From positions 6,350 to 28,321 of IMG/VR virus record IMGVR_UViG_3300030333_000881: a stretch of DNA of 21,972 bases; one strand, given 5' to 3'. A program made the position numbers and the translations under genes. Source of the stretch: a virus. This document shows positions 4,259 through 21,760 of the stretch, piece by piece. Every line of letters begins with the position of its first letter. Positions within the stretch are counted from its first letter, which is position 1. Below the pieces are notes generated by a model that was given only the letters and a program-made list of their open reading frames with translations, searched no databases and was not told where the DNA came from.

Positions 4259-7200
4259 ATGTCACTAACTAGGTTAAAGAATATTATTACGTCCCGTACG
4301 GGACGTATTATCTACGTCAACCCTGACGATTTCGATGCGTCAGACGCTATTGACAATAGGGGGAACTCTGCCCTGCGACCTTTTAAAAGTTTGCAACGTG
4401 CTTTTTTAGAAGTAGCAAGGTTCTCATATAGAGTTGGTTTAAGTAATGACGAATTTGATGCTTTTAGCATCATGCTATATCCTGCTGAATATCAAATAGA
4501 TAATAGACCTGGTGATGTATTATATACAAACGTTGCTCCTATTGATGCTAATTCTAACCTAGATTTAACGTCACCTAATAATGTATTATATAAGTTTAAC
4601 TCAACCGAAGGTGGTGTTATTGTACCTAGAGGTTGTTCTGTTGTTGGTACAGACCTTAGAAGAACTAAGATAATACCTAAGTATGTTCCTTATCCAACAA
4701 CATTCCCTGCTAAAGGTATAAACACAGAAGATCAAGTTCCCCCACGTACAGCAATCTTTAAAGTAACTGGTGGTACTTATTTCTGGCAATTCTCATTCTT
4801 TGATGGTGCAGAAGAAGGTGTATATTTCAAACCTGATAGTGTAGAAACATTAGCACCTAAGTTCTCACATAATAGACTTACATGTTTTGAGTTTGCTGAT
4901 GGTTTAAATCCATTATCAACTCTTATTTCTCAAGGAAACGTACCTAATGCAGATTATTCTGCTGTACCAAATATCTTAGAGAGAACAGATTTAGACATAT
5001 ATTATCAGAAGATATCTAAAGCATTTGCAACTATTCCTGATACATCTGGTGATCCAGCAACTGACCAAATACAGGCAAGAGTTGAAGAGAACAGAATTGT
5101 TGGTCCTATTAGTGATGAATATAGAATATTACAAATAACAAGAAACGGACAAACTGCAACTGCTGTTACTGTAGATGAATTTGATAACCCAAGAGATCAT
5201 GGATTCTCTGTTGGTGTAAACATCAACGTATCTGGTGTTACTGGATCAACTGGTCCTCAGTCTGATTTAGATGCTACCATTTATAACGGATCATTTACTG
5301 TAACATCTGCATCTGGTAACGTATTTACTTACCAAATGTCATCTGAACCAACTGGTAATGCTGTAGGTTCAAACATAACAGTTAAGACTGAGATTGATAC
5401 TGTTGACTCTGCATCACCATACGCATTTAACCTATCACTAAGAAGTGTGTGGGGTATGAATGGAATGCACGCTGATGGTAGTAAGTCAACTGGTTTCAAA
5501 TCTATGGTTGTTGCTCAGTTTACTGGACTATCACTACAGAAAGATGACAGAGCATTTGTAAGATATAATCAATCAACTGGTAGTTATGATGTAGCAACTG
5601 CTGGAGATGGTGCTCACCTAGATGGTTTCGCTGAATACCGTAAGGGATGGGGACACAGACATATTATGGCATCTAACGATGCGTTTATACAGGCGGTCTC
5701 GGTGTTCGCTGTTGGATTCCAAGGACACTTTACAGCACTTGAAGGTGCTGACATGTCAATTACTAACTCTAACAGTAACTTTGGTAGTATTGCACTTAGA
5801 TCTGCTGGATTTAAAGCAAAATCATTCTCAAAAGATAAAGCAGGTGCTGTAACTCATATCATTCCACCTAAAGCACTTAATGTTATTTCAACTACTGCTA
5901 CTGGTGCTAGTGGAGCATCAGCAATTACTCTGACAAATGATGGGTCAATAAATGGTGTTGTTGAAGGTATGACTGTTACTGGTACTGGTATAGCAACTGG
6001 AGCTACAGTTGGTAACGTTAATACAAATACAAGAGTTGTAACTTTATCTGCTGTTAATAGTGCTGCTGTTAACGGTAATGTTATCTTTGGTGAAGAGACA
6101 TCTGTTAACTGGGTTAACATAGATATTCCAAGAACTAAAACAATTAACGCTGCATTAGCAGGTCAGGGTGGTACTCCTGGAACAAGATTGTACCTTTATG
6201 GATATACAGTTCAGACATCACCACCAACAACTAGAGTACAGGGTTATACAATCGGTGCTAGACAAGATGGTACTGGAAATACTGCTGTAGCAGATAAAAT
6301 TAACTGTTTACTTGTTGCTCAAGGTGCATCCGAAGCAACTGTACAATCTGCATTTATATCACCATATGGACCTAGTGTATCAGGTATAGATGCTGGTGCT
6401 GCTGGATCTCCATTACAATATGATAGTGCAACTTATACAATTAATGGTGTTGCTGATACTGTAGGTGGTTGGTATCTATCTGTAAGTTCTACTAACAACG
6501 CAATATATACAACACTCTCAACTAATACTACTTACAATACAGTTAACTTTACACCAACTACATTCCTTAAGAGAATACCTGACCCAAGAGACTTGGATGA
6601 TAGAACTTATCGTGTAAGGTATGTAATTGATAAGGATAAGACTAATCCATTACCAAGAGATCCTATCTCTGGTTATGTAATGCAACCGTTGAATAGTGAT
6701 ACAACTTCTTATAAGTTAGACAAGTGTTATTACATTTATAATATTGAAGTTGTTCAACCATTTGAAAGAGGTGTTAAAGATGGAATATACTACCTTACAC
6801 TCCTTTGTGCGTCTATTGCTCCGACAACTTCAAACTTTAATGACAGAAAGTTCTCTCAAAATGTCAACGAGGTCTATCCAACGTTCGACAGAGACAACCC
6901 TGTTGCTGACCCTGTTGCTTCTGTCTCAGTTGCCGACAACCAAACTATTGGATTAGTTAATTCAACTGATGGTGCAACACCAACTCCTAATTTAGATCCT
7001 AAGAGATCTATTACTAAGGAAGCAACTGAGTTCTTATTGCAGGATACAGGTTGGACACAACCAGGTACTACACCTAACTATGATTCTGTTAACGCAAGAC
7101 TTTCTAACATACAATTAACTGCACGTGCAGGTGATGAAGAAGCAAGAAAGATCAACATCAGAGAAAATAATGATGGTACTGTCGCTCCTATTAATGTTGA

Positions 7201-8221
7201 GTTTAGACGACACTCCATCCTTAGATCAGGTAATCATACGTTTGAGTATCTAGGTTTCGGACCAGGAAACTATTCTACTGCATTCCCTCAAACACAGGTT
7301 GAAACTCTTACACAGAACCAAGTTAGATTTTCACAGAGTATTAAAGAAGAAGCAGGTGTTGCTTTCTATTCAGGATTGAACTCTAATGGTGATCTGTTTA
7401 TTGGTAATCAGGTTATTAACCCAGTTACAGGTCAGATCACTAATGAAGATATTGCACAGTTGAATGTTGTTGGTGAAGAGAATACAACTATTGAGACTTT
7501 CTCTGAGTTGGTATTAACCGATAAGTTAACTGTAATTGGTGGAGCATCTAACCAGTTAGAATCTATATTTGCTGGTCCTGTTACATTCCAAGGTTTAGTT
7601 ACTTCAACTAATAATATACAAGCGAAGAAATTATCTTATTACAACCAAGATGGAACAGTTATCAAGCAAACATTACTTGCACCAGAAGATGCAAATGGAT
7701 TACCTGACTTCTCTAACATTACTGGTTATGACACTCCTGCTGATGGAGACTTAGTTTATAATATTAGTTGGACTCCAGGTAAATCTCTTGGTTGGATATA
7801 TTATAACCAAGTATGGAAAGAGTTTGGTTTGACTGATACAGGTCAGATTGATATTGAAACCTTTACTAATAAACAACATATTGGTATTGGTGTTGCACCT
7901 AATTCTACATATCGAATTAATGTCGATGGTTCTGTAAGAATTGATGGTGACTTAGTTGTTACTGGTAGAGGTGGCGTTTCTGCTGATAAGTACATTACCA
8001 AAACATATACTGGTAATGGATCTCAGTTAACATTTGCAGTTACAACATATTCTGGTGGCATACAACATACTGACGATTCACTTTTGGTATTCTTAAATGG
8101 TGTAGCACAAATTGCAGGTACTAACTATACAGTTGACTCTAACGGTGCAAACGTAGTATTTAATTCTGGAGACGCACCATTAGCAACTGATACAGTTCAT
8201 ATTCTGGAACTGCCTATCTAA
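4259..8221 (+). CDS. large virion fibre protein, putative beta-helix
   Basis: At 1320 aa this is the largest gene here. The N-terminal ~80 residues (RIIYVNPDDFDASD... RPFKSLQRAFLEVARF) resemble the start of tailspike and pectate-lyase-like proteins, where a row of Asp/Asn residues leads into a right-handed beta-helix. Residues ~460-525 (GWGHRHIMASNDAFIQAVSVFAVGFQGHF... ADMSITNSNSNFGSIALRS) fit beta-helix coils. The last ~75 residues (YTGNGSQLTFAV... DDSLLVFLNGVAQIAGTNYTV) match a short terminal beta domain common in phage fibres. The gene has its own late element at 4226. Host attachment or a long-fibre role is inferred; no catalytic residues are claimed. Confidence 0.85.
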   Translation: MSLTRLKNIITSRTGRIIYVNPDDFDASDAIDNRGNSALRPFKSLQRAFLEVARFSYRVGLSNDEFDAFSIMLYPAEYQIDNRPGDVLYTNVAPIDANSNLDLTSPNNVLYKFNSTEGGVIVPRGCSVVGTDLRRTKIIPKYVPYPTTFPAKGINTEDQVPPRTAIFKVTGGTYFWQFSFFDGAEEGVYFKPDSVETLAPKFSHNRLTCFEFADGLNPLSTLISQGNVPNADYSAVPNILERTDLDIYYQKISKAFATIPDTSGDPATDQIQARVEENRIVGPISDEYRILQITRNGQTATAVTVDEFDNPRDHGFSVGVNINVSGVTGSTGPQSDLDATIYNGSFTVTSASGNVFTYQMSSEPTGNAVGSNITVKTEIDTVDSASPYAFNLSLRSVWGMNGMHADGSKSTGFKSMVVAQFTGLSLQKDDRAFVRYNQSTGSYDVATAGDGAHLDGFAEYRKGWGHRHIMASNDAFIQAVSVFAVGFQGHFTALEGADMSITNSNSNFGSIALRSAGFKAKSFSKDKAGAVTHIIPPKALNVISTTATGASGASAITLTNDGSINGVVEGMTVTGTGIATGATVGNVNTNTRVVTLSAVNSAAVNGNVIFGEETSVNWVNIDIPRTKTINAALAGQGGTPGTRLYLYGYTVQTSPPTTRVQGYTIGARQDGTGNTAVADKINCLLVAQGASEATVQSAFISPYGPSVSGIDAGAAGSPLQYDSATYTINGVADTVGGWYLSVSSTNNAIYTTLSTNTTYNTVNFTPTTFLKRIPDPRDLDDRTYRVRYVIDKDKTNPLPRDPISGYVMQPLNSDTTSYKLDKCYYIYNIEVVQPFERGVKDGIYYLTLLCASIAPTTSNFNDRKFSQNVNEVYPTFDRDNPVADPVASVSVADNQTIGLVNSTDGATPTPNLDPKRSITKEATEFLLQDTGWTQPGTTPNYDSVNARLSNIQLTARAGDEEARKINIRENNDGTVAPINVEFRRHSILRSGNHTFEYLGFGPGNYSTAFPQTQVETLTQNQVRFSQSIKEEAGVAFYSGLNSNGDLFIGNQVINPVTGQITNEDIAQLNVVGEENTTIETFSELVLTDKLTVIGGASNQLESIFAGPVTFQGLVTSTNNIQAKKLSYYNQDGTVIKQTLLAPEDANGLPDFSNITGYDTPADGDLVYNISWTPGKSLGWIYYNQVWKEFGLTDTGQIDIETFTNKQHIGIGVAPNSTYRINVDGSVRIDGDLVVTGRGGVSADKYITKTYTGNGSQLTFAVTTYSGGIQHTDDSLLVFLNGVAQIAGTNYTVDSNGANVVFNSGDAPLATDTVHILELPI

Positions 8222-8246: not shown

Positions 8247-8663
8247 ATGGCAATTTCAAGGATTAGTGGAAATCAGATTTCCACATCAACAGAAGCAATT
8301 ATTACTACACTTAGTTTTTTAAATACTAATAGTGTTCTAAGGGTTCCTGCTGGTACACAAGCACAGAGACCTACAGGTATTTCTGTTGGGACTATAAGAT
8401 TTAATACTGATAGTGATTCTGCTGAAATCTACAAAGCAGATGATGGTACTGGATCAGCAGGATGGACTGCTATATCTGGTGGTGGTCCTGCTTTAGGTAC
8501 TGATAGTATTATCAGAACAAATCCTACAACTATTGCAGAAAATATTACAGTTGGACCTACTGCTGGTGATGAATTTGCCAACGGAATGAGTGCTGGTCCT
8601 ATAACAATATCAAACGGTTTTACTGTCACGGTAGAAACTGGTGGAGCATGGAGTATACGATAA
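8247..8663 (+). CDS. short tail-fibre-like protein
   Basis: A 138-aa protein with two recognisable parts. Residues ~33-74 carry a fibre module with core AQRPTGISVGTIRFNT followed by Tyr, Asp, Gly and Trp, variants of which recur in the next three fibre genes. The C-terminus (MSAGPITISNGFTVTVETGGAWSI) looks like the beta-strand plug that often ends phage fibres. It has a good ribosome-binding site (CGGAGGA, with AGAGG closer in) and its stop directly abuts the next ATG at 8664. Probably a fibre tip or adaptor, expressed with the following genes. Confidence 0.8.
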   Translation: MAISRISGNQISTSTEAIITTLSFLNTNSVLRVPAGTQAQRPTGISVGTIRFNTDSDSAEIYKADDGTGSAGWTAISGGGPALGTDSIIRTNPTTIAENITVGPTAGDEFANGMSAGPITISNGFTVTVETGGAWSIR

Positions 8664-10574
8664 ATGGCAGTCACAGAACTAAGAGTTGCGAACATCCAAG
8701 GTCTGTCTCCTGCATTTACAACAACGATTAATGGACATTCTATATTATCGTTAAAAGGTGATCTGAGAGTCAATAACCAACAGTATATGCCTATGCCAGC
8801 AGGTGATAAGGCAGCAAGGGTTACTGTACCTATTAGTGGTAGTGTTAGATGGTCTACAGATCTTAATAATTTTGAATTTTATATTGGACGAGGTACGTCA
8901 AAGTGGTCTACTTCCAACTGGATGACTGCTACAGGTGGTACAGTTACTACAACTGGTAATTTTAAGATTCATACATTTTACAGTAGTGATACATTTTCTG
9001 TTGGTAATGGTGGTGACGCTGAAGTCTGGGTAATTGGAGGCGGTGGCGGTGGAGGAGGCGGTGGTGCCAACTCTGGATCTCCTGGTGGTGGAGGTGGTGG
9101 ATTAGTTTATGCTAAAGTACCTCTTACTGGTGGAAATTATTCTGTAACTGTAGGTAGTGGTGGTCAAGGTGGTAAAGCAAGTTCAGGTAATTCATCTGCT
9201 GCGGGTGCAGGTGGTAACTCATCTGTAACAATAGGTGGACAAATATTTTTAGCAACAGGTGGACAAGGAACTGGTGCTATTAATGGAAATTATAATAGTA
9301 CGACAAATATTTCAGGTGGTACAGGAACAATAGGTGGTAGTACATCATACTCTTATGGTGGAACTAACGCAGTATTTGGAACAGGAGGATATGGAGGACA
9401 TGGTGGTAACTCCACCTCTAACGCTAATGCTGGAGCAAGTGGAACAAATTTTGCTCCTGGTGGTGGAGGAGGTGGTACTAATAATGGTAGTGCTGCTAAT
9501 GGTGGTAATGGATCTGCTGCTTACTTCACAGGTGGTGGAGGAGGTGGAGGACGTGATGGAGACGGTAATAATAGTCCTGCGGTTGGATATGGTGGATCGG
9601 GTTGGTATACTGGAGGAAATGGTGCTAACGTAAGTAGTATTCTAGCAACAAATGGAGGTGGACCTGTCGGAGGTTCACGAGGAGATTTAGGTAGTAGTAG
9701 ATGGAACGCTGGAGGAGGTGGAGCATCTTGTGGCGGTGGAGGTGGAGGAGCAGGAGACTCTTCAAACTCCCCTAATGCCTCTGGTGGTCAAGGTGGAGGT
9801 GGAGCAGTAATATTCAAATATCAATATAAAGCAGCAGCAGAAGGTGGAGCAGGAGCAATAGCAGGTTCTAGTGCTGACAATCCTGCTGATTCAGCAGCAG
9901 AAGCAGCAGCAGCAGGTTTAACTGGTAGTGTTGTTTACCTGAATGTTCATGGTCAAGTTGTACAAATGGAGTTTGATGCAGGTGATAGGTATGGTAGTGG
10001 TCATGTAGGATGGGCAAAAATGGATAATGTCACATTTGGGGCAAATAATACCATTATTCCATATACAGTTTATGGTTCACCATCTACTATAATACCTGCA
10101 TTTAATAATCAATCTGTTGACTCTACTTCCAATAGTACTATTGCTCAAGGAACTCATAGAATAGGTAGAAACCAATCTCATGGTGGTGGTAACTCATTAT
10201 CTACAATTAGAATTGGTCTTCCTAAATTAACTAGGGTACATTATACTGCTCAATATGTATCTGGTGGTAATGATAGTGCTGACTTTGGTAGTTTCACTCA
10301 AAACTTTAATGGAATTATTGGTAATAACCCTTATGAGAATAATGGATCTGGATACTGGGCAGTAATATGGTCTGGTAATAATAATAGTTGGAATAGTGAT
10401 ATGACTATTATTGATCCAGGTAACTTAACAAGTGGAAACCAGGCACACTCTCAAACTATTGGACCTGTTGGGTTTAATTCTCAAACTACTACAGATCCTT
10501 GGGTAATTTGGGGAACTACCGATGCTTATCGGGAGTATCGTTATACAAACTCTTGGACAATTTGGGTACATTAA
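8664..10574 (+). CDS. glycine-rich fibre/adhesin, paralogue A
   Basis: A 636-aa protein in three parts. The N-terminal ~110 residues hold a diverged fibre module (ARVTVPISGSVRWST). Residues ~124-385 are a long Gly-rich shaft introduced by VWVIGGGGGGGG, of the kind seen in phage fibre and adhesin glycine-rich domains. Residues 405-636 are a C-terminal domain shared with the genes at 10576 and 11572, ending in WGTTDAYREYRYTNSWTIWVH-like sequence. That domain begins NPADSAAEAAAAGLTG, reminiscent of fibrinogen-related domains. Likely a receptor-binding fibre. The gene starts immediately after the previous stop. The DNA of the shaft is highly repetitive (GGT/GGA codons). Confidence 0.85.
   Translation: MAVTELRVANIQGLSPAFTTTINGHSILSLKGDLRVNNQQYMPMPAGDKAARVTVPISGSVRWSTDLNNFEFYIGRGTSKWSTSNWMTATGGTVTTTGNFKIHTFYSSDTFSVGNGGDAEVWVIGGGGGGGGGGANSGSPGGGGGGLVYAKVPLTGGNYSVTVGSGGQGGKASSGNSSAAGAGGNSSVTIGGQIFLATGGQGTGAINGNYNSTTNISGGTGTIGGSTSYSYGGTNAVFGTGGYGGHGGNSTSNANAGASGTNFAPGGGGGGTNNGSAANGGNGSAAYFTGGGGGGGRDGDGNNSPAVGYGGSGWYTGGNGANVSSILATNGGGPVGGSRGDLGSSRWNAGGGGASCGGGGGGAGDSSNSPNASGGQGGGGAVIFKYQYKAAAEGGAGAIAGSSADNPADSAAEAAAAGLTGSVVYLNVHGQVVQMEFDAGDRYGSGHVGWAKMDNVTFGANNTIIPYTVYGSPSTIIPAFNNQSVDSTSNSTIAQGTHRIGRNQSHGGGNSLSTIRIGLPKLTRVHYTAQYVSGGNDSADFGSFTQNFNGIIGNNPYENNGSGYWAVIWSGNNNSWNSDMTIIDPGNLTSGNQAHSQTIGPVGFNSQTTTDPWVIWGTTDAYREYRYTNSWTIWVH
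10221..10289 (+). repeat. 69-bp tract identical to 13126-13194
   Basis: Within the shared C-terminal domain of paralogue A, these 69 bases are identical, base for base, to 13126-13194 in paralogue C, including third codon positions. A second identical 41-bp tract pairs 10323-10363 with 13228-13268. The flanking sequence differs, so these are local tracts of identity, best explained by recombination or a recent duplication. Confidence 0.9.
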
Positions 10575-10575
10575 T

Positions 10576-11559
10576 ATGAGTCAAATAACTACATCACATA
10601 TAACAGGAATCGCATCAACACTAGAGCAGGTTACTATATCTGCTGGTCATACATTAAAAGTGTCTGGTGCTATAGAATGTGACCATACTGGTGCATTACA
10701 ATTACCAACAGGAACAACTGCTCAACGTCCAGGAAGTCCTCAAGCAGGATATTTTAGGTTTAATACTACAGAAAGTAAGTTTGAAGCATGGGATGATACT
10801 AATAGTGAGTGGAAAGAATTTGGTAGTGCTCCAATAGGATCAGATCAAGGAAATCCTGCTAATTCAGCAAAAGAGGCAGCAGCAGCAGGTCTACCATCTG
10901 GTACAGCATGGATTAATATTGGTTCTACAGCATATGCCTTTGAATATGATGCTAGTGATAGATTTGGTACAGGAGATAGTGGTTGGATTAAGTATGATAG
11001 AGTTTTCTTTGGTGATAATAATAGTACCATAAGTCATACAGAATATGGTAGTCCGAGCACAATTATTCCTGCATGGAATGTCAGTAGTACTAGTAGTACA
11101 AGTAATTCTACTATTGCTGCTGGTAGACATAGGATTGGTAGAGAACAATCACACGCAGGTGGTAACTCTCTTTCAACTATCAGGGTTCAATTACCTCAAC
11201 TAACTAAAGTTCAATATTCTGCTAGTTATGTATCTGGTGGTGCTGATGCTGCTGACTTTGGTTCATTTAACCAAAACTTTAATGGTATTGTAAATAATAG
11301 TCCTTATGAGAATAATGGATCTGGTTATTGGATGGTAATATGGGATGGTAATACAAGTGGTAACTTTAGTAATAATATGCTTATTACTGACCCAGGTAAT
11401 TTAACAAGTGGTAATAACTCTCACTCTCAAAATACTGGTGTATTATCATTTGGTAGTCAAAGAGGATCAGTAGGTAGTCCACCATTTGCTATCTGGGGTA
11501 CTACTGATGCTTATCGTGAGTATAGATATACTAACGAGTGGACATTATGGTTACACTAA
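10576..11559 (+). CDS. tail-fibre protein without Gly shaft, paralogue B
   Basis: A 327-aa protein. An in-frame start also exists inside the previous gene (10522), but ATG 10576, one base after that gene's stop, gives MSQITTSHITGIAS, a normal fibre N-terminus, so I use it. Residues ~40-75 hold the fibre module (GTTAQRPGSPQAGYFRFNT, then Trp, Asp and Trp). Residues 92-327 are the shared C-terminal domain, here with the clearest fibrinogen-like entry (GLPSGTAWINIGSTAY). It lacks the glycine-rich shaft of its two paralogues, as if the shaft had been lost or never acquired. A receptor-binding role is inferred. Confidence 0.85.
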   Translation: MSQITTSHITGIASTLEQVTISAGHTLKVSGAIECDHTGALQLPTGTTAQRPGSPQAGYFRFNTTESKFEAWDDTNSEWKEFGSAPIGSDQGNPANSAKEAAAAGLPSGTAWINIGSTAYAFEYDASDRFGTGDSGWIKYDRVFFGDNNSTISHTEYGSPSTIIPAWNVSSTSSTSNSTIAAGRHRIGREQSHAGGNSLSTIRVQLPQLTKVQYSASYVSGGADAADFGSFNQNFNGIVNNSPYENNGSGYWMVIWDGNTSGNFSNNMLITDPGNLTSGNNSHSQNTGVLSFGSQRGSVGSPPFAIWGTTDAYREYRYTNEWTLWLH

Positions 11560-11571
11560 TTTTTAATTAAA

Positions 11572-13482
11572 ATGAGTACATTAGTCGTTAACGAATTAAA
11601 TGCAGCAAGGGAAGCGGAATATAGAATCCGTATGCCTAGTAATGCTCATTTAAATATTTCAGGAACACTATCTATAGATAATACTGCTGGATCTCAAGCA
11701 CAAATAATATTTCCTAAGGGTAATTCTGCTCAGAGACCAGGAACTCCTGTTGCTGGAATGGTAAGAATTAACACTAATTTTTATGGTGGAAAAAATGTAG
11801 AGGTGTTAGAAGGATATGATGGAACTGCATGGATAGCATTAGTAGAATCTGCTGAGATTGAAGGAGAAACCGTAGTCAATCCAAATGCACAAGGAGGTCA
11901 GACTCTTCTTGCAAATGGATATAAGTATCATATATTTAAAGATACTGGTAGTACAGATTTTACATTTATAAGTCCAGCAGAAGGTGTTAATATTGAATAT
12001 GTAATCGTCGGTGGTGGCGGTGGAGGTGGAGGAGGAGACGTTGGTGCTGGTGGAGGTGCTGGCGGTTTCCGAACTAATAAATCTGGATCACCATCTGGAG
12101 GAGGATGTAGTGCCGAACCTGCCATGATTGTTACACCAGGAACTTATCCTGTAGTAGTAGGTGCTGGTGGAAATGGTGGTAGTAGTTCTGGTGGATATGG
12201 TAGTGATGGAGGAGACTCAAGTTTTAATAATATAATTTCTGAAGGTGGAGGTGGTGCTCCTGGATGGAGTGCTAGTAATGGAAAATCAGGTGGATCTGGA
12301 TCAGGTTCAACAGGATCAGGTGGCAACAATCCAGGTTCAGGTACAAATTGTCAGGGATATGCAGGTGGAACAGGATTAGGTGGTAGTAACTATCCTCAAG
12401 GTGGAGGAGGTGGTGCAGGTGAAGCAGGAGAAAATGCACCTAACCAAAACCAAGCAGGTAAAGGTGGTGATGGTTTACCTAACCCATTCCAAGATACTAA
12501 TATTGGACAGTCAAGTGGTGGTCAAAGATACCTCGCTGGTGGAGGTGGAGGTGGTGTAGAAAGTAATGCAACAGTTGGTAATGGTGGTGTTGGTGGAGGT
12601 GGTATAGGTGGTCGTCAAAGTCCTAACCTAGATCCTGGAAATGGTCTCCCTAATACTGGAGGTGGTGGAGGTGGAGAAGATAATCAGACAGGTGGATCTG
12701 GAGGTTCAGGTCTGGTAATTCTTAGGTATGCTTTTGTGGATGATGGAACTTCAGCACCAGCAATAGCAGGTTCTACTCAAGATAATCCAGCAACTTCTGC
12801 TAGACAGGCAGCAGCAGACGGATTAACTGGAGATAAGATATGGTTGACTATTGGTAATAATGCCTATGAAATGGATTTTGATGCTAGTGATAGATATAGT
12901 AGTGGCAATAGTGGATGGGCAAAATTTGATAATGGTGTATTTGGTGCTAACAACGCAACAATAGATTACACAGTCTATGGTTCACCATCTAGTATAATAC
13001 CAGCATTTAATAATAACTCTGTTGACTCTACTTCTAACTCTACTATTAGTTCTGGTACTCATAGAATAGGTAGAAATCAAAGTCATAATGGTGGTAACTC
13101 ACTATCAACTATTAGGATCATGTTACCTAAATTAACTAGGGTACATTATACTGCTCAATATGTATCTGGTGGTAATGATAGTGCTGACTTTGGTTCATTT
13201 AACCAAAACTATAGTGGTATCATAAACAATAACCCTTATGAGAATAATGGATCTGGATACTGGGCAGTTATATGGGATGGTAATTCAAGTGGTGGTTTTG
13301 GTGATAGTATGTTAATCATAGATCCAGGTAACTTGACAAGTGGAAACCAATCACACTCTCAAACTATTCTTTCTGGTTCTTTTGGTTCTGAAACAGGAGA
13401 TGACCCTTATATAATTTGGGGAACTACTGATGCTTACAGAGAGTATAGGTACACAAACTCTTGGACTCTTTGGGTTCATTAA
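11572..13482 (+). CDS. glycine-rich fibre/adhesin, paralogue C
   Basis: A 636-aa protein, the same length and plan as paralogue A. It has an N-terminal fibre module (SAQRPGTPVAGMVRINT near residues 57-73), a Gly-rich shaft from about residue 146 (VIVGGGGGGGGG) to about 382 (VILRYAF), and the shared C-terminal domain at 404-636. Its C-terminal domain is closer to A than to B: A and C share long runs such as VHYTAQYVSGGNDSADFGSF. The N-terminal ~50 residues differ from A. Spacing to the previous gene is 12 bases. The pair A/C suggests duplication followed by exchange. Confidence 0.85.
   Translation: MSTLVVNELNAAREAEYRIRMPSNAHLNISGTLSIDNTAGSQAQIIFPKGNSAQRPGTPVAGMVRINTNFYGGKNVEVLEGYDGTAWIALVESAEIEGETVVNPNAQGGQTLLANGYKYHIFKDTGSTDFTFISPAEGVNIEYVIVGGGGGGGGGDVGAGGGAGGFRTNKSGSPSGGGCSAEPAMIVTPGTYPVVVGAGGNGGSSSGGYGSDGGDSSFNNIISEGGGGAPGWSASNGKSGGSGSGSTGSGGNNPGSGTNCQGYAGGTGLGGSNYPQGGGGGAGEAGENAPNQNQAGKGGDGLPNPFQDTNIGQSSGGQRYLAGGGGGGVESNATVGNGGVGGGGIGGRQSPNLDPGNGLPNTGGGGGGEDNQTGGSGGSGLVILRYAFVDDGTSAPAIAGSTQDNPATSARQAAADGLTGDKIWLTIGNNAYEMDFDASDRYSSGNSGWAKFDNGVFGANNATIDYTVYGSPSSIIPAFNNNSVDSTSNSTISSGTHRIGRNQSHNGGNSLSTIRIMLPKLTRVHYTAQYVSGGNDSADFGSFNQNYSGIINNNPYENNGSGYWAVIWDGNSSGGFGDSMLIIDPGNLTSGNQSHSQTILSGSFGSETGDDPYIIWGTTDAYREYRYTNSWTLWVH
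13126..13194 (+). repeat. 69-bp tract identical to 10221-10289
   Basis: This is the copy of the identical tract described at 10221-10289, inside paralogue C about 2.9 kb away. Identity at synonymous positions points to DNA-level exchange rather than protein-level selection alone. Confidence 0.9.
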
Positions 13483-13511: not shown

Positions 13512-13931
13512 ATGTCAACACTTAATGTCGATACTATAAAAGATAAAGGTGGTACTACTGGACCTACTTTGGGAGGTAATACTGCATGTACGGGGAACTT
13601 TACTCTTACGGGTAGTTTACTATCCCCAGGTGGAGGGACTTATGCAGGATTAAGTGCTGACGCTTTAGTACACTCTGGTGGTAACACAGTCACGTTAGCA
13701 GCAGATAATTTATCTCCTACTGTTGGAACTATAGATTTAGGATCAACATCTAATAGATGGAATAACATCTATACAAGTGACTTAGACTTATCTAATGAAA
13801 AAATTACTGGTGGTAATGATGTGGATGGGACTTGGGGTTCCTACACCATCCAAGAGGGTGAATCGGATCTCTTCTTGATAAATAGGAGAAATGGTAAAAA
13901 GTATAAGTTTAATCTTACGGAGGTTTCCTGA
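13512..13931 (+). CDS. small tail-fibre protein, conserved C-terminal domain
   Basis: A 139-aa protein starting MSTLNVDTIKDKGG, a typical marine-phage fibre N-terminus. Residues ~70-139 carry a segment I recognise from cyanophage fibres: a GTIDLGSTSNRWNNIYTSD stretch, then NDVDGTWGSYTIQEGESDLF and finally KKYKFNLTEV. This looks like a fibre tip domain that can end larger fibres, here as a stand-alone gene. It is preceded by an exact late promoter, and its 3' end supplies the CGGAGGT ribosome-binding site (13918-13924) of the next gene. Confidence 0.85.
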   Translation: MSTLNVDTIKDKGGTTGPTLGGNTACTGNFTLTGSLLSPGGGTYAGLSADALVHSGGNTVTLAADNLSPTVGTIDLGSTSNRWNNIYTSDLDLSNEKITGGNDVDGTWGSYTIQEGESDLFLINRRNGKKYKFNLTEVS

Positions 13932-13933
13932 TA

Positions 13934-14359
13934 ATGGCACTAATTGGACCTAGAGAGAACTCCTCTCAGTTATACAATAATGATCTTGACACAAGTTCGA
14001 GTGGTAATAACACACAAACTCCTGCAAGTGTAAGTACAAGTGAACCTGGTGCATATATTATTCATGCAGGTTATTCTCCATCTGACCAAAGTGGTAACTA
14101 TCCCAATAATGACTGGGACGCTTGGGCAGTTAGATGTTATGTTGGTGGATCGCAGTTAGGTTCTCAAATGAGAGGACAAGAAGGTGGTATTCAAACATAT
14201 CGTATTGCAGGTTCTCACTGCTGGTATTGGAATAAGACCAGTACATCTTCAGAAAATATAGAGGTGAGATGCAATTCTTATTGGGGTGAAGGTGACAACG
14301 ACGGAGGAGGACAACGAGGATTCCTTAACGTTGGTATATTCCGTTTAGGTAAGCACTAA
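13934..14359 (+). CDS. hypothetical fibre-associated protein
   Basis: A 141-aa, Ser/Gly/Asn-rich protein (MALIGPRENSSQLYNND) with no recognised domain. It has four Trp and three Cys residues (about C57, C86, C102), little Lys, no signal peptide and no membrane helix. Composition and location among fibre genes suggest a beta-rich virion or tip protein. It has an excellent ribosome-binding site (CGGAGGT) and is followed ten bases later by the chaperone-like gene. Function is inferred from context only. Confidence 0.7.
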   Translation: MALIGPRENSSQLYNNDLDTSSSGNNTQTPASVSTSEPGAYIIHAGYSPSDQSGNYPNNDWDAWAVRCYVGGSQLGSQMRGQEGGIQTYRIAGSHCWYWNKTSTSSENIEVRCNSYWGEGDNDGGGQRGFLNVGIFRLGKH

Positions 14360-14369
14360 GGAGGAAATT

Positions 14370-14735
14370 ATGGCAGATAAAACAGATGGAGTAATAGTTA
14401 AACCGATTGGTGACTGTTTAATGAAGATGGGTATCAAGGACTTTGTTGTTGATATTAATGCTAATGCAGTTTTACAACCAACATTAACTGAATCTCAAAC
14501 AGCACAATTAAACGCACTAATTGATTCCGAATGGCCAAAGATGAAGATAAGAGGTAGAAGAAATAAACTTCTTGCTCAATGTGATTGGATGGCAAATTCT
14601 GATTATACTATGTCTGATGAGTGGAAAACATATAGACAAGCATTAAGAGACTTGCCAGCAAATTCACCTGATGCTAGAATAAATCAAACAACAGGTAGAT
14701 TAGAAAATGTTACCTGGCCAACGAAACCTAGTTAA
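14370..14735 (+). CDS. tail fibre assembly chaperone-like protein
   Basis: A 121-aa protein whose C-terminal half carries the hallmark of phage tail (fibre) assembly chaperones: RRNKLLAQCDW (residues 63-73) and YRQALRDLP (88-96). In other phages this segment often sits in small proteins encoded beside tail-fibre genes that help fibres fold and attach. Here it directly follows the fibre cluster. It has the strongest ribosome-binding site in the late module (AAGGAGG, 14358-14364), suggesting abundant expression. The N-terminal ~40 residues have no recognised motif. Family call is good; direct partner fibres are unknown. Confidence 0.8.
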   Translation: MADKTDGVIVKPIGDCLMKMGIKDFVVDINANAVLQPTLTESQTAQLNALIDSEWPKMKIRGRRNKLLAQCDWMANSDYTMSDEWKTYRQALRDLPANSPDARINQTTGRLENVTWPTKPS

Positions 14736-14752
14736 AATAATATTATTTTATT

Positions 14753-15265
14753 ATGAAAATTGATGTGATTGAGGATTACTTAGATCCCTCAGATTTTGAA
14801 CAATTAAAAACTACACTATTGAAAGATGAGTTCCCTTGGTTCTTAAGTACAATAGTAAATAGCGATGATACTCTTGCTCCTGATTGGAATACGCAAATAG
14901 TACATCGCTTTTATGATAATAATGTACCTACATCATCATTCTTACAGGCATTAGATCCAGTATTTGCTAGGATAATTGCATCTGGTATGACAAGTTTGCA
15001 TAAAGTTAAAGGTAATATAATTTTTAAAACAGAGAATATAATAGAGCACGGATATCATGTAGATATAACAGATCATAGACCATACTTCAGAACATCTATT
15101 CTTTATATGAATACATGTGATGGTTATACTAAGTTTGAAGATGGTACAATAGTAACGTCAGAAGCAAATAGATTCGTTACTTTTCCTACATCTATGAGAC
15201 ATACTGGTACTACTTGTACTGATGCTAGTTTTAGGATGGTATTAAATTTCAATTACGCTATTTAA
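14753..15265 (+). CDS. 2-oxoglutarate/Fe(II)-dependent oxygenase
   Basis: A 170-aa protein with the facial triad of the 2OG-Fe(II) superfamily: H102-x-D104 (in GYHVD), a distal H150 (MRHTG) and R161 (FRMVLNF), the Arg that binds the 2-oxoglutarate carboxylate. The GYTKFEDG segment between them and the length fit phage prolyl-hydroxylase-like oxygenases, which are common in T4-like cyanophages. The substrate is unknown. Its position as the last gene after fibre and chaperone genes suggests it may hydroxylate a virion protein (inference). The ATG at 14753 follows an A/T-rich gap with no clear ribosome-binding site. Confidence 0.88.
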   Translation: MKIDVIEDYLDPSDFEQLKTTLLKDEFPWFLSTIVNSDDTLAPDWNTQIVHRFYDNNVPTSSFLQALDPVFARIIASGMTSLHKVKGNIIFKTENIIEHGYHVDITDHRPYFRTSILYMNTCDGYTKFEDGTIVTSEANRFVTFPTSMRHTGTTCTDASFRMVLNFNYAI

Positions 15266-16582: not shown

Positions 16583-17194
16583 ATGACACTCGAAGTTATT
16601 AAACAGTCAACAGAATTGTTGACAGAACAATTTACAAATGGTGAAGGATTACGAGGAGTTCCACTCAAGAATTATTCTGGACCTAAATTAGAAGAATGGT
16701 CAGAATATACCTTAAAACTTATCATCAAAGATTTACAGAATAAGTACCCTGATGTTAATATAGAGTGGGGTAAAGGTTATCTCAAGTCAGACCATGAAGG
16801 ATTAGGTGATGAAAGATTAGATCAACATGTTAAAGTAAATGGTAAGTATGCTTATTTACAAGAAGATAGAGCATGGGTTGACAAACCATTTTATACACTT
16901 AAGAGAGCAGTAATTAGAAACATTATGATCTCTTGTAAGTCACAATTACATGATAATATTAAATTTGGTCTTGTTGGTTATTGTATAGATATCAAACAAG
17001 ATTTAGTTAATACATGTAATGTAACTCAAGGATTTAGTGATAAAGTTAGTAGATTCTCTCTTACTGGCAGAAGACGTAGTAAGAAAGTTAATGGTAAAAC
17101 TGTTAACTGGTATGAGACTGGATTTATAGAAGAAACTGTGGTACAATATATTAACTATGTGTATAAAACTCTGGAGGATGTTATAGTTGGTTGA
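16583..17194 (+). CDS. unknown protein; candidate restriction endonuclease
   Basis: A 203-aa soluble alpha/beta protein. I do not recognise the family with certainty. A conserved-looking core at residues 74-113 (LGDERLDQHV, YLQEDRAW, PFYTLKRAVIRN) contains D80 and E94-x-R96 after a hydrophobic strand, spacing that could be a variant PD-(D/E)xK nuclease site; upstream E37/E38 lie in a helix. Its gene is immediately followed, with an eight-base overlap, by a DNA methyltransferase, as in many restriction-modification pairs. This makes an endonuclease the leading hypothesis, not an established function. The usual Lys of the motif would be Arg here. The start has only AGGGA as a ribosome-binding site. 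Confidence 0.75.
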   Translation: MTLEVIKQSTELLTEQFTNGEGLRGVPLKNYSGPKLEEWSEYTLKLIIKDLQNKYPDVNIEWGKGYLKSDHEGLGDERLDQHVKVNGKYAYLQEDRAWVDKPFYTLKRAVIRNIMISCKSQLHDNIKFGLVGYCIDIKQDLVNTCNVTQGFSDKVSRFSLTGRRRSKKVNGKTVNWYETGFIEETVVQYINYVYKTLEDVIVG

Positions 17195-18014
17195 ACTATA
17201 TCATGGAGATTGTCTCGTAGAGATGAATAAAATCGCAGAGGATTCAGTTGATCTGATTCTCTGCGATCTTCCTTATGGTACTACTAAATGTAAGTGGGAT
17301 TGTGTAATTCCACTTGATAAATTGTGGTCACATTATAAGAGAATTATTAACAAGAAACATGGTGTAATTGCCTTGTTTGCAGATCAACCATTTACATCTA
17401 TGTTAGTATCATCTAATATAGATTGGTTTAAGTATGAATTTATATGGAAGAAAGATAAGACTACTGGTTACTTACTAGCAAATTATCGTCCCATGAAATG
17501 TACTGAAGATATTGTAATCTTCTCTCCAGCAGGTGCAGCAGCAGCATCAAGACATAAGGGTAATATGACATATAATCCGCAAGGATTGATCCCTAAAGTT
17601 GTTAAGAAAAAGAATAGTGAGAAGAGAATAGGTAAAATGTTAAACCAAAAACATCATTTAGGACAGAACAATAAGTTATTATCAGAGACAGAATATTCTC
17701 AACAATATACTAACTATCCTACTGAAATACTTGAGTTTAAACATGAAAATGACACTAAACATCCTACACAAAAACCTATTCCATTATGTGAATATCTTGT
17801 TAAAACATATAGTAATGAAGGGCAAATTGTGTTAGATAATTGTATGGGAAGTGGTACAACTGGTATCGCTTGTGTTAACACTAACAGACAATTTATAGGT
17901 ATAGAAAGTGATACTAACTATTTCAAACTAGCACAGGAGAGAATCCGACCAGTTGACAAAGTGTCACATGATATCACCCATAACCCTATAGAATCCCTTA
18001 TACTACAAAAGTAA
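17187..18014 (+). CDS. beta-class DNA methyltransferase (probably N6-adenine)
   Basis: A 275-aa AdoMet-dependent methyltransferase. The catalytic motif IV comes first (DLPYG, residues 27-31, a DPPY variant, followed by TTKCKWD), and the AdoMet-binding motif I comes near the end (LDNCMGSGTT, ~216-225), the order of the beta class. HPTQKP before motif I also fits the class. Phage enzymes with DLPYGTT...KWD are usually annotated as adenine methyltransferases. The start is TTG 17187, supported by GGAGG (17173-17177) and an eight-base overlap with the previous gene, so the two are coupled. It could protect phage DNA from host restriction or serve in gene regulation. The target site is unknown. Confidence 0.9.
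   Translation: MVELYHGDCLVEMNKIAEDSVDLILCDLPYGTTKCKWDCVIPLDKLWSHYKRIINKKHGVIALFADQPFTSMLVSSNIDWFKYEFIWKKDKTTGYLLANYRPMKCTEDIVIFSPAGAAAASRHKGNMTYNPQGLIPKVVKKKNSEKRIGKMLNQKHHLGQNNKLLSETEYSQQYTNYPTEILEFKHENDTKHPTQKPIPLCEYLVKTYSNEGQIVLDNCMGSGTTGIACVNTNRQFIGIESDTNYFKLAQERIRPVDKVSHDITHNPIESLILQK
17947..17965 (+). repeat. recurrent motif, site 2 (inside a coding end)
   Basis: GACCAGTTGACAAAGTGTC differs at one position from GACCAGTTGGCAAAGTGTC at 19506-19524. It lies within the last 25 codons of the methyltransferase gene, about 50 bases before its stop, so here the motif is also coding. Confidence 0.6.
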
Positions 18015-19551: not shown

Positions 19552-19586
19552 CATGTATGATTATATTATTAATGAGGTGATTGCCT

Positions 19587-20828
19587 TTGAACGAAACTCT
19601 AAGACCACACCAGCAACGTGCCTATGATAACATGAATCAGCACGATTGTGGTCAAATTGTTGTACCTACTGGTGGAGGTAAAACTTACATTATGATTGAG
19701 GATTGCAAGAGGTTTTTTAACAACAACCGTAACAAGACTGTTGTTGTAGTAGCACCTAGAATCTTGCTTGCTAATCAACTATCAACAGAATTTTTAAGCG
19801 AAATAAGTGATGTTGACGTATTACATGTTCACTCTGGTGAAACACATCACGATAGCACAACTAAGTCAGAAAGTATACTTTGGTGGAATATTACCAGCAC
19901 TAGAAATAGAATTATCTTTACAACTTATCACTCTTTGTATAGAGTATTAGATGCTAATATTGGTATCAATACATTATACTTTGATGAAGCACATAATGGT
20001 ACTGGTAAAAGATTTTTCGAGAGTATATTAAAGTGTTCTCAAAGAGGATATAGACGCTATTTCTTTACTGCAACACCCCGCATTTCACGCAGTAAAAAGA
20101 ATATTAGTGCGGAAAGAGGTATGAATAATACTCAAATATGGGGTTCTATATTAGAACAAACACCAGCACAGGAGTTGTTAGATAGTGGTACAATCTTACC
20201 ACCTAAAGTAATAACATTTGATACTGATAGAGAGAGAACAAAACAGAACGCACATGAGGTAGATGGTGATAACTTAAAGGACATAATTAGGAATATTGAT
20301 ATACACTCTCCTAAGATACTTGTGTCTGCTCCAACAACAAGAATTATGTGGAATATGTTGACACAAACTGATACTCAGGACTGGATATATCGTGAAGGTT
20401 ATGATATAATGCACATAACATCTAAGCATGGTGCATATATCAATAAGAAGAAAGTAGGTAGGGAAGAGTTCTTTGAAACCCTTACAAAATGGGGTTCTGA
20501 TGATAATAAAAAGTTTGTAATCTTCCACTATTCTATACTATCAGAAGGGATAAATGTTCCAGGTTTAACTCATTCAGTTATGCTTAGAAATCTTCCTACG
20601 ATTGAAATGGCACAGACAATAGGTAGAGTAATTAGAGTACATAATGAGGACAGAAAGAGTGTAGATAGTGGTGTAATTCCAGCAGGTAAGTTTGATTTAT
20701 ACCAGAAAAGTTGTGGTAAGATTGTTGTACCTATGACTGGTAAATATGGTCAAAAGATAGAACGTAGATTACAATCTATCGTAAATTATATCTTTGTAGA
20801 AGGTATTCCACCCCTTAGTTATTGTTAA
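19587..20828 (+). CDS. SF2 DEAH-type helicase
   Basis: An SF2 helicase of 413 aa from TTG 19587 (in-frame TTG 19581 adds two residues). I prefer 19587 because GAGGTGA (19574-19580) is well spaced for it. Motifs, numbered from TTG 19581: Q-region LRPHQQRAY (7-15), Walker A PTGGGKT (29-35), Ia VVVVAPR (54-60), DEAH (135-138), motif III TATP (163-166) and motif VI QTIGRVIR (345-352). No nuclease, methylase or long N-terminal domain is fused; it is shorter than full T4 UvsW. Its TAA stop overlaps the next ATG, so it is co-translated with a DNA methyltransferase. It could be a DNA repair/recombination helicase or the motor of a restriction-like system. Confidence 0.9.
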   Translation: MNETLRPHQQRAYDNMNQHDCGQIVVPTGGGKTYIMIEDCKRFFNNNRNKTVVVVAPRILLANQLSTEFLSEISDVDVLHVHSGETHHDSTTKSESILWWNITSTRNRIIFTTYHSLYRVLDANIGINTLYFDEAHNGTGKRFFESILKCSQRGYRRYFFTATPRISRSKKNISAERGMNNTQIWGSILEQTPAQELLDSGTILPPKVITFDTDRERTKQNAHEVDGDNLKDIIRNIDIHSPKILVSAPTTRIMWNMLTQTDTQDWIYREGYDIMHITSKHGAYINKKKVGREEFFETLTKWGSDDNKKFVIFHYSILSEGINVPGLTHSVMLRNLPTIEMAQTIGRVIRVHNEDRKSVDSGVIPAGKFDLYQKSCGKIVVPMTGKYGQKIERRLQSIVNYIFVEGIPPLSYC

Positions 20829-21760
20829 TGAAAGACACAATTCTATTTGGAGATTGTAGAGAATCTCTCGCAAATATCACCACTAAATGTAATATGTGTG
20901 TGACAAGTCCACCTTATTATGGATTGAGAGATTATGGTGGAGAATCATCACAAATAGGACAGGAAGATACACCTGAAAAATATATCGAAGAAATGGTTAA
21001 AGTGTTTAGATTAGTGAGAGATTGTCTAACTGATGATGGTACTTTATGGTTGAATATTGGTGATAGTTATTATAACTATAGACCAGGTAAATCGTATCCT
21101 AAACAAACAGTTAGTAAGACTAATCAAGACCTACCAGAGTATACACCAAAGAGAGCAAATAAGTTAGATGGATATAAAGAAAAGGATCTAATTGGCATCC
21201 CTTGGATGTTAGCATTTGCATTAAGAGCAGATGGATGGTATTTACGTCAGGACATAATATGGCATAAACCTAATCCTATGCCTGAAAGTGTCAAGGATAG
21301 ATGTACTAAATCACACGAGTATTTGTTCCTCTTAAGTAAGAATAAGAAGTACTATTATGACCATGAAAGTATCAAAGAGAAGGCAGTAGGTGAGCGATGG
21401 GGTGGTAATAAACCTATCAACATGGATAACACTAAGGACACAGATAATCAGTTCTCAGGGTTAACAAGACCACGCAAAATGGTCTATGATAAGAGGAATA
21501 AACGTAGTGTATGGAAAGTAACAAATAGACCATATAAAGGTAGTCACTTTGCTGTATTTCCACCTGAATTAATTACACCTTGTATTCTTGCAGGTAGTGA
21601 GAAAAATGATATTATCCTTGACCCATTTATGGGTAGTGGTACTACTGCTATGGTTGCAAAACAGTTGGGTAGGTATTACTTAGGATGTGAATTACACGAG
21701 GATTATGGTAACTTAATACAGGATAGATTACCTAACGATTCTCTAAGTAAATTACTGTGA
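20828..21760 (+). CDS. beta-class DNA methyltransferase (TSPPY type)
   Basis: A 310-aa methyltransferase. It starts DTILFGDCRESL, has motif IV TSPPYYGLRDYG (residues 26-37), and motif I DPFMGSGTT (265-273) near the C-terminus, the beta-class order. SPPY is typical of N4-cytosine enzymes but also occurs in some N6-adenine enzymes, so the methylated base is uncertain. In between are WLNIGDSYYNY (near 78-88), IWHKPNPMPESVKDR (~152-166) and a variable loop likely to contact DNA. I use ATG 20828, overlapping the helicase stop, rather than TTG 20822. It is the second methyltransferase in four kilobases. Confidence 0.9.
   Translation: MKDTILFGDCRESLANITTKCNMCVTSPPYYGLRDYGGESSQIGQEDTPEKYIEEMVKVFRLVRDCLTDDGTLWLNIGDSYYNYRPGKSYPKQTVSKTNQDLPEYTPKRANKLDGYKEKDLIGIPWMLAFALRADGWYLRQDIIWHKPNPMPESVKDRCTKSHEYLFLLSKNKKYYYDHESIKEKAVGERWGGNKPINMDNTKDTDNQFSGLTRPRKMVYDKRNKRSVWKVTNRPYKGSHFAVFPPELITPCILAGSEKNDIILDPFMGSGTTAMVAKQLGRYYLGCELHEDYGNLIQDRLPNDSLSKLL

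Follow-up and report, generated by a model that had tools for sequence, protein, structure and literature searches.

Position-specific anchors and replaceable tips in a proposed adhesin gene rack of an ocean T4-like cyanomyovirus

Introduction

How do three neighbouring phage genes come to end in the same domain, and what might such genes do for the virion? This question is raised by a stretch of 21,972 bases (hereafter the window; positions 6,350-28,321) in the 28,321-base virus record IMGVR_UViG_3300030333_000881. The source is an ocean T4-like cyanomyovirus, a virus of cyanobacteria, and its closest annotated relatives are the Synechococcus phages S-MbCM100 and ACG-2014a. In the window, a fibre gene encoding 1320 amino acids (aa) is followed by a 138-aa gene and then by three genes that share a C-terminal domain (CTD), all on one strand and tightly spaced. 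These three are called gene A, gene B, and gene C here, for the open reading frames (ORFs) beginning at 8664, 10576, and 11572, respectively.

An initial sequence-only reading saw a likely modular receptor-binding locus at 9876-13482, in which one C-terminal domain stood on different shafts, glycine-rich in two genes and lacking in the third, and shaft and tip varied independently. Following the comparisons described below, we propose, with a probability of roughly three in four, that these genes form a rack encoding adhesins of the virion, made up of AQRP anchors specific to each position (slot) and, in most genes, replaceable C-terminal tips.

Results

Anchors and gene positions

The rack in the window consists of the following parts, with E values from hidden Markov models (HMMs) or Pfam and, for slot 1, the ratio of nonsynonymous to synonymous substitution rates (dN/dS).

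8247-8663, plus strand: slot 1 gene, 138 aa, AQRP anchor without a large tip (AQRP HMM, 9e-19; dN/dS 0.11)
8664-10574, plus strand: gene A, whole ORF, 636 aa
8664-8927, plus strand: gene A, slot 2 anchor, residues 1-88 (position-specific anchor match)
8934-9836, plus strand: gene A, glycine-rich domain, Gly_rich_2 (PF21722, 2.5e-5; aligns with the C-terminal glycine-rich domains of relatives)
9876-10574, plus strand: gene A, CTD copy 1 (CTD HMM, 1e-119; phrog_4831)
9879-10025, plus strand: neck motif opening CTD copy 1 (NPAxSA...GW), similar to the entry of fibrinogen/COLFI domains (iterated HMM, E=6e-21)
10576-11559, plus strand: gene B, whole ORF, 327 aa
10576-10848, plus strand: gene B, slot 3 anchor, residues 1-91 (anchor match to slot 3 of S-MbCM100 and S-IOM18)
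10849-11559, plus strand: gene B, CTD copy 2, immediately behind the anchor (CTD HMM, 5e-126; AlphaFold2 beta-sandwich)
10852-10998, plus strand: neck motif opening CTD copy 2 (iterated HMM, E=8.5e-25)
11572-13482, plus strand: gene C, whole ORF, 636 aa
11572-11850, plus strand: gene C, slot 4 anchor, residues 1-93 (anchor match to slot-4 anchors of relatives)
11887-12735, plus strand: gene C, glycine-rich domain, Gly_rich_2 (PF21722, 1.5e-22, positions 4-225 of 226)
12781-13482, plus strand: gene C, CTD copy 3 (CTD HMM, 1e-123)
12784-12930, plus strand: neck motif opening CTD copy 3 (iterated HMM, E=9e-23)

For gene B, the ORF caller gave an upstream ATG at 10522; homologues favour 10576. The AQRP-module HMM matched the 138-aa gene and genes A, B, and C (1e-12 to 3e-19), confirming that all four carry the AQRP...RxNT module noticed earlier, gene A in the variant form AARV...RWST. 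For comparison, the corresponding locus was extracted from another twelve annotated phages and from contigs that the anchor sequences had retrieved; L-numbers below are labels of the compared loci and contigs. In these relatives, the first four AQRP genes have N-terminal anchors that pair off in order with those of the 138-aa gene, A, B, and C. The anchor of gene A was 37-42% identical to the standalone slot-2 genes (79-86 aa) of relatives and to the slot-2 anchors of L063 and L064. That of gene B was 52% identical to the slot-3 anchor of S-MbCM100, which bears an F5/8-type tip, and 47% identical to slot 3 of S-IOM18, and that of gene C was 36-39% identical to the slot-4 anchors of S-MbCM100, L062, and L064, which bear an unrelated tip. 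A tree built with 51 anchors of 13 genomes implied three changes of position label, the minimum possible, compared with 28.7 changes for shuffled labels; the groups for slot 1 (support 100/100) and slot 4 (98/95) were strong and that for slot 2 (84/81) was moderate. A census comprising 80 loci fetched with the slot-1 protein and eight others gave the order 1-2-3-4 in all 79 loci with at least four anchors. The rack is not universal, being absent or reduced in P-HM1/2, ACG-2014e/i, S-SSM4, and S-PM2.

Alignment and tree thus show that anchors at the same position are orthologues across genera, yet they often carry unrelated tips. On this comparison, A, B, and C occupy slots 2, 3, and 4 of a conserved rack rather than being simple tandem copies, and the fixed module is the AQRP anchor, specific to each gene position. 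The idea of a modular locus was supported as regards exchange, with the constant part being this anchor.

The shared C-terminal domain

The CTD comprises about 232 residues (A 405-636, B 92-327, and C 404-636), and the three copies aligned end to end with identities of 75% (A/C), 66% (B/C), and 63% (A/B) and BLAST E values of 1e-73 or better, in agreement with the common domain and residue limits first proposed. The segment WGTTDAYREYRYTN was present in all three copies, which form direct repeats (62-83%) in the DNA and matched the phrog_4831 profile at 1e-110 (A), 3e-132 (B), and 6e-116 (C). Here the CTD sits on slots 2, 3, and 4, behind a complete glycine-rich domain on slots 2 and 4. Comparison of gene number and order in related phages had been suggested from the outset as decisive, and its outcome supports modular exchange. 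Using tblastn, the CTD was found in 42 GenBank phages, in every one at a single place (42/42), versus three places in the window phage, and orthologous anchors in relatives carried different C-terminal domains. The lone copy lies in the same rack on another slot in S-MbCM100 and ACG-2014a, on slot 3 in S-IOM18, WH25-B, and QB2, next to a giant fibre in the vicinity of gp13 in ACG-2014e/i, and behind the giant YapH gene in P-HM1/P-HM2. In IMG/VR, three of the four closest contigs had the full set of three copies, ordered as here, while the remaining one ends just upstream of gene C; the CTD on three slots was confined to this window clade. No relatives of the CTD were found in bacterial or archaeal genomes (GTDB genome contigs).

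CTD orthologues clustered gene by gene with bootstrap values of 99-100, on which ground recent homogenisation of the three copies was rejected. Monophyly of the A, B, and C copies was rejected by the approximately unbiased (AU) test (p=0.009). These trees bear on the simplest account of the locus, plain tandem duplication, by which one fibre gene doubled twice in place and the N-terminal parts diverged without module exchange. The three CTDs are indeed adjacent, on the same strand, and of one family, and A and C have a common layout of anchor, glycine-rich domain, and CTD. However, besides the AU result, each anchor is nearer to the same-position anchor of other genera than to its neighbours, and the CTD of gene B is closer to those of P-HM2 and ACG-2014e (69-71% identity) than to those of A and C (63-66%). 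In addition, the glycine-rich domain of gene C shares 61% identity with the domain that ends the product of a different gene, S-MbCM100 gp41, which is the seventh gene of its rack, the anchor of gene C being of the slot-4 type. Plain duplication is highly improbable on this evidence.

Tips on the same anchors in relatives

Slot 2 was tipless (79-93 aa) in 50 of 88 loci. Among the loci around the window, it was tipless in L008, L012, and L062, carried a tip termed X in L063 and L064, and carries a glycine-rich domain plus CTD here. The slot-3 anchor bore an F5/8-type tip in S-MbCM100 and L062, no tip in L063, L064, and S-SM1, and the CTD here; the slot-4 anchor bore tip X in S-MbCM100 and L062-L064 (ending in ...LWWWIK in L062-L064) and bears a glycine-rich domain plus CTD here. 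The tips fell into 35 clusters, many of them unrelated, and four clusters were found on more than one of slots 2-4. Tip X occupied slots 2 and 4 of L063 and L064, and L102 and L147 had other tips on both of these slots. A fibrinogen/COLFI-like tip unrelated to the CTD occupied slots 2, 3, and 4 in L114, L117 (S-TIM4), L121, L124, L130, L131 (S-SSM5), and L132; the S-TIM4 and S-SSM5 cases are complete genomes of isolates, and the annotated P-RSM4 locus is colinear with them. At a threshold of at least 55% identity between slots, tip sharing was detected in 7 of 26 dereplicated loci, versus a shuffled mean of 2.2 (2 of 5000 shuffles were as high). After removal of near-relatives, sharing was found in 5 of 15 loci versus 1.25, and looser tip clusters gave a weaker excess (7 versus 3.6; 148/10000). 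The distribution of tips indicates that the state in which one tip occupies several slots arose repeatedly, with different tips.

Tip sharing of this kind might also be expected if slots 2-4 encoded three different chains of one heteromeric fibre and matching tips were needed in the mixed oligomer. Two unrelated tips do fill exactly slots 2, 3, and 4, one in the window clade and the other in S-TIM4, S-SSM5, and P-RSM4, and the sharing is above chance. Most relatives, however, have a tipless slot 2 and unrelated tips on slots 3 and 4; matching tips are therefore not required, and we consider a heteromeric fibre quite improbable.

Several otherwise unrelated tips open with a neck motif, NPAxSAxxxxxxGxxSGxYWI...YxD...GW, usually 12-24 residues past the anchor; in A and C it comes behind the glycine-rich domain. 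With an iterated HMM, the CTD, tip X, and COLFI-like tips gave hits, and 1021 shuffled proteins gave none. The motif may mark the exchange joint, much as has been proposed for a conserved motif, TD1, of Kuttervirus tailspikes (PMC8432352).

Glycine-rich domains

As first described (two segments of about 240 residues), two of the genes have glycine-rich stretches: glycine makes up 28-38% of about 250 residues in A and C, and no such stretch is present in B. Both passed the Pfam cut-off of 24.3 bits for Gly_rich_2 (PF21722), gene C with 81.2 bits and gene A with 24.9 bits, just above it. Their description as shafts, that is, spacers setting the reach of the tip, draws on their place between anchor and CTD in A and C and their absence from B, so that tips could stand at different heights. 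Against this, the match to Gly_rich_2 is full-length, and at least six relatives, including S-MbCM100, S-SM1, S-CAM8, and S-ShM2, have proteins that terminate in the same domain. Moreover, the corresponding domain in gp24 of cyanophage Pam3, a glycine-rich lattice, lies distally and forms the receptor-binding tip (PMC9608196). By these comparisons, the glycine-rich part is probably a binding domain and the label "shaft" wrong; a spacer role seems rather unlikely. Because a full Gly_rich_2 domain ends proteins of relatives, A and C probably each have two binding modules, one behind the other.

Searches of PDB sequences with both glycine-rich regions and a glycine-rich profile gave no significant match, and an AlphaFold2 model of full-length gene C, built from 8 sequences, had a mean predicted local distance difference test (pLDDT) score of 34. 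A further fusion was observed in L020 (6987-8696), where the CTD is joined to an ALK/LTK-type glycine-rich domain (PF12810, ALK_LTK_GRD) without an AQRP anchor. By its domain matches, this is a third kind of composite of a glycine-rich domain and the CTD.

Fold and rate of evolution of the CTD

AlphaFold2 (30 sequences) modelled the CTD block of gene B as a beta-sandwich with pLDDT mostly 85-98 and lowest at about 77; the anchor region was of low to moderate pLDDT (40-80). Since the three CTDs are 63-75% identical, a common fold is expected for all of them, the modelled one being that of gene B. Fold comparison with residues ~126-327 returned the ephrin-receptor ligand-binding domain, the Vip3A C-terminal domain, MAM, and CBM16/36/15 (Z 8.6-9.5), so that the predicted fold is compatible with a glycan- or protein-binding role. 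Sequence searches of solved structures with the CTD and its profile gave no significant match. Identification of the CTD as a fibrinogen-related domain was not supported, as A, B, and C had no Pfam Fibrinogen_C/COLFI match above cut-off. Only the first ~45 CTD residues resemble the fibrinogen/COLFI family, fibrinogen was not among the listed fold matches, and some profile E values for this similarity rest on tiny alignments and serve as leads only.

Comparison of the window with L002-L004 gave dN/dS values of 0.34-0.73 for parts of A, B, and C; neighbouring genes lay in the 0.01-0.19 range (0.11 for the gene at 8247, 0.01-0.03 for that at 13512, and 0.13-0.19 for that at 13934). The raised values fit relaxed or diversifying constraint, no value exceeding 1 in this comparison. 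Rack proteins could instead be baseplate or tail decorations or folding helpers that bind no receptor; indeed, they have no known receptor, and PHROGs assigns these families no function. On the other hand, raised dN/dS is confined to A, B, and C, the CTD fold is carbohydrate-binding-like, relatives carry F5/8-type, COLFI-like, and glycine-rich tips on the same anchors, and a separate chaperone gene exists. We regard a decoration or helper role as unlikely.

Neighbouring genes

The rack is flanked by the following genes.

4259-8221, plus strand: large upstream fibre gene, 1320 aa, T4-GC346 type (phrog_529 tail fiber, E=0)
13512-13931, plus strand: downstream gene E, 139 aa, resembling the C-terminal ends of cyanophage tail fibres (phrog_892 tail fiber, 1.6e-15)
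14370-14735, plus strand: probable tail-fibre assembly chaperone, 3' of the rack (PF16778 Phage_tail_APC, 2.6e-14; phrog_4912 tail fiber assembly)

S-MbCM100 and ACG-2014a show 79% DNA identity to the window over the last part of the large fibre gene together with the slot-1 gene. The large fibre gene precedes the rack in all relatives, and the gene order is kept in L008, L012, and L046-L057. The unit thus begins at 8247, or at the fibre gene at 4259; position 9876, from which the locus was first drawn, is the start of the first shared domain, and the CTDs within that span were confirmed. We count the chaperone gene in favour of the adhesin-rack reading. Promoter and terminator scans of the rack region gave results at chance level.

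Gene E adjoins the fast-evolving rack yet is strongly conserved (dN/dS 0.01-0.06). The 141-aa gene at 13934-14359 is kept in L001-L004 and had no Pfam or PHROG match, and 14753-15265 matched phrog_274, named DNA endonuclease V. In relatives L046, L047, L049, L051, L053, L057, and L165, genes for 2-oxoglutarate-Fe(II) (2OG-Fe(II)) oxygenases, some of them leprecan-like, adjoin the rack, raising the possibility that virion proteins are hydroxylated. Just upstream of the structural block, a 96-aa ORF (152-442) with a plant-type 2Fe-2S ferredoxin motif (CRAGACSSC...TC) is likely a phage-borne ferredoxin gene. Two DNA-methyltransferase-like ORFs surround a UvsW-like helicase (17187-18014, 19581-20828, and 20822-21760), partly syntenic with the methylase and helicase genes of S-MbCM100.

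Discussion

The adhesin rack proposed here would work as follows. The anchors would each attach to a site of their own on the tail or baseplate, and the tips would bind cell-surface receptors, probably glycans. Recombination at the joint between anchor and tip would move tips between slots and between phages. One tip on several slots would raise avidity for one receptor class at a cost in receptor breadth.

Several points weigh against this proposal. The virion location of the rack proteins and their binding of receptors are deduced from sequence and a structural model. The fold matches of the CTD are remote (3-13% identity), and Z values near 9 are only modestly above background. The slot-3 anchor group is weakly supported (59/66), and the census loci were chosen for having slot 1, so that the constant order is conditional on the rack, and are mutually related rather than independent. 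When L020 was added, monophyly of the A, B, and C CTDs was not rejected (p=0.08). Finally, the three tips are stable across the closest contigs, and recent exchange was not seen there.

The closest analogue of the rack, by gene arrangement, is the Ackermannviridae tailspike cluster TSP1-TSP4 of CBA120 and its relatives (PMC8432352, PMC11414711). In both, up to four receptor-binding genes, putative ones in the rack, are adjacent, with N-terminal regions conserved gene by gene and differing receptor-binding modules; these can be swapped between TSP types there, and the same tip occurs on different slots here. The Ackermannviridae proteins, however, are beta-helix tailspikes joined by XD domains, whereas the rack has short AQRP anchors and a modelled beta-sandwich tip, some slots are tipless, and a single genome can have the same tip on three slots. 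The rack is not a member of this type, as its CTD lacks the beta-helix tailspike architecture in the model. As regards the XD1-XD3 branching domains, a sequence-level Pfam search gave no match in the anchors. T-even/S16 gp38 and Pam3 gp24 are alike in having a glycine-rich domain (30-40% glycine) in the tail-fibre gene region with a chaperone gene nearby, and Pam3 also infects a cyanobacterium. They differ in that the glycine-rich domain of A and C is not C-terminal, the CTD standing behind it, and is known here by sequence rather than by lattice fold. Other cyanomyovirus tips (F5/8-type in S-MbCM100, COLFI/fibrinogen-like in S-ShM2 and S-TIM4, and Gly_rich_2 in S-CAM8) occupy the same locus and anchors, and some share the neck motif, but their C-terminal domains are not the CTD. 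The family phrog_4831 contains the CTD and the AQRP-CTD architecture of gene B (443 bits); it is annotated "unknown function" and does not contain the glycine-rich-CTD composites as such. A literature search, which did not extend to paywalled papers, found no description of a rack of position-specific anchors in cyanomyoviruses. In S-PM2, the short-tail-fibre genes that acquired mutations in chemostats (PMC9910659) adjoin a giant fibre gene of a different kind, and they were left out of the evidence.

A broader picture is put forward tentatively, as somewhat less likely than not to hold in full. Many marine T4-like cyanophages may have four docking slots with interchangeable tips that are copied from slot to slot within a genome, and may shift between a multi-receptor state with different tips and a single-receptor, high-avidity state with one tip; proteins such as A and C would stack two receptor-binding modules on one anchor. 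That the rack might generate host-range variation, as was suggested for this locus at the start, is plausible; the closest contigs keep the three tips, and the raised dN/dS values stay below 1.

How T4-like cyanophages choose their cyanobacterial hosts is largely unexplained, and the rack offers named genes and domain boundaries for this problem. It is present in the well-studied isolates S-TIM4, S-SSM5, P-RSM4, S-RIM2, S-SM1, and P-SSM3. S-TIM4, in which slots 1-4 correspond to ORF37-40, is reportedly a generalist used for experimental evolution on three hosts, and through it the state with one tip on three slots is open to study in culture. By typing tips slot by slot, receptor classes could be predicted for phage contigs from metagenomes, and the rack gives a concrete route to study how cyanophages may change hosts.

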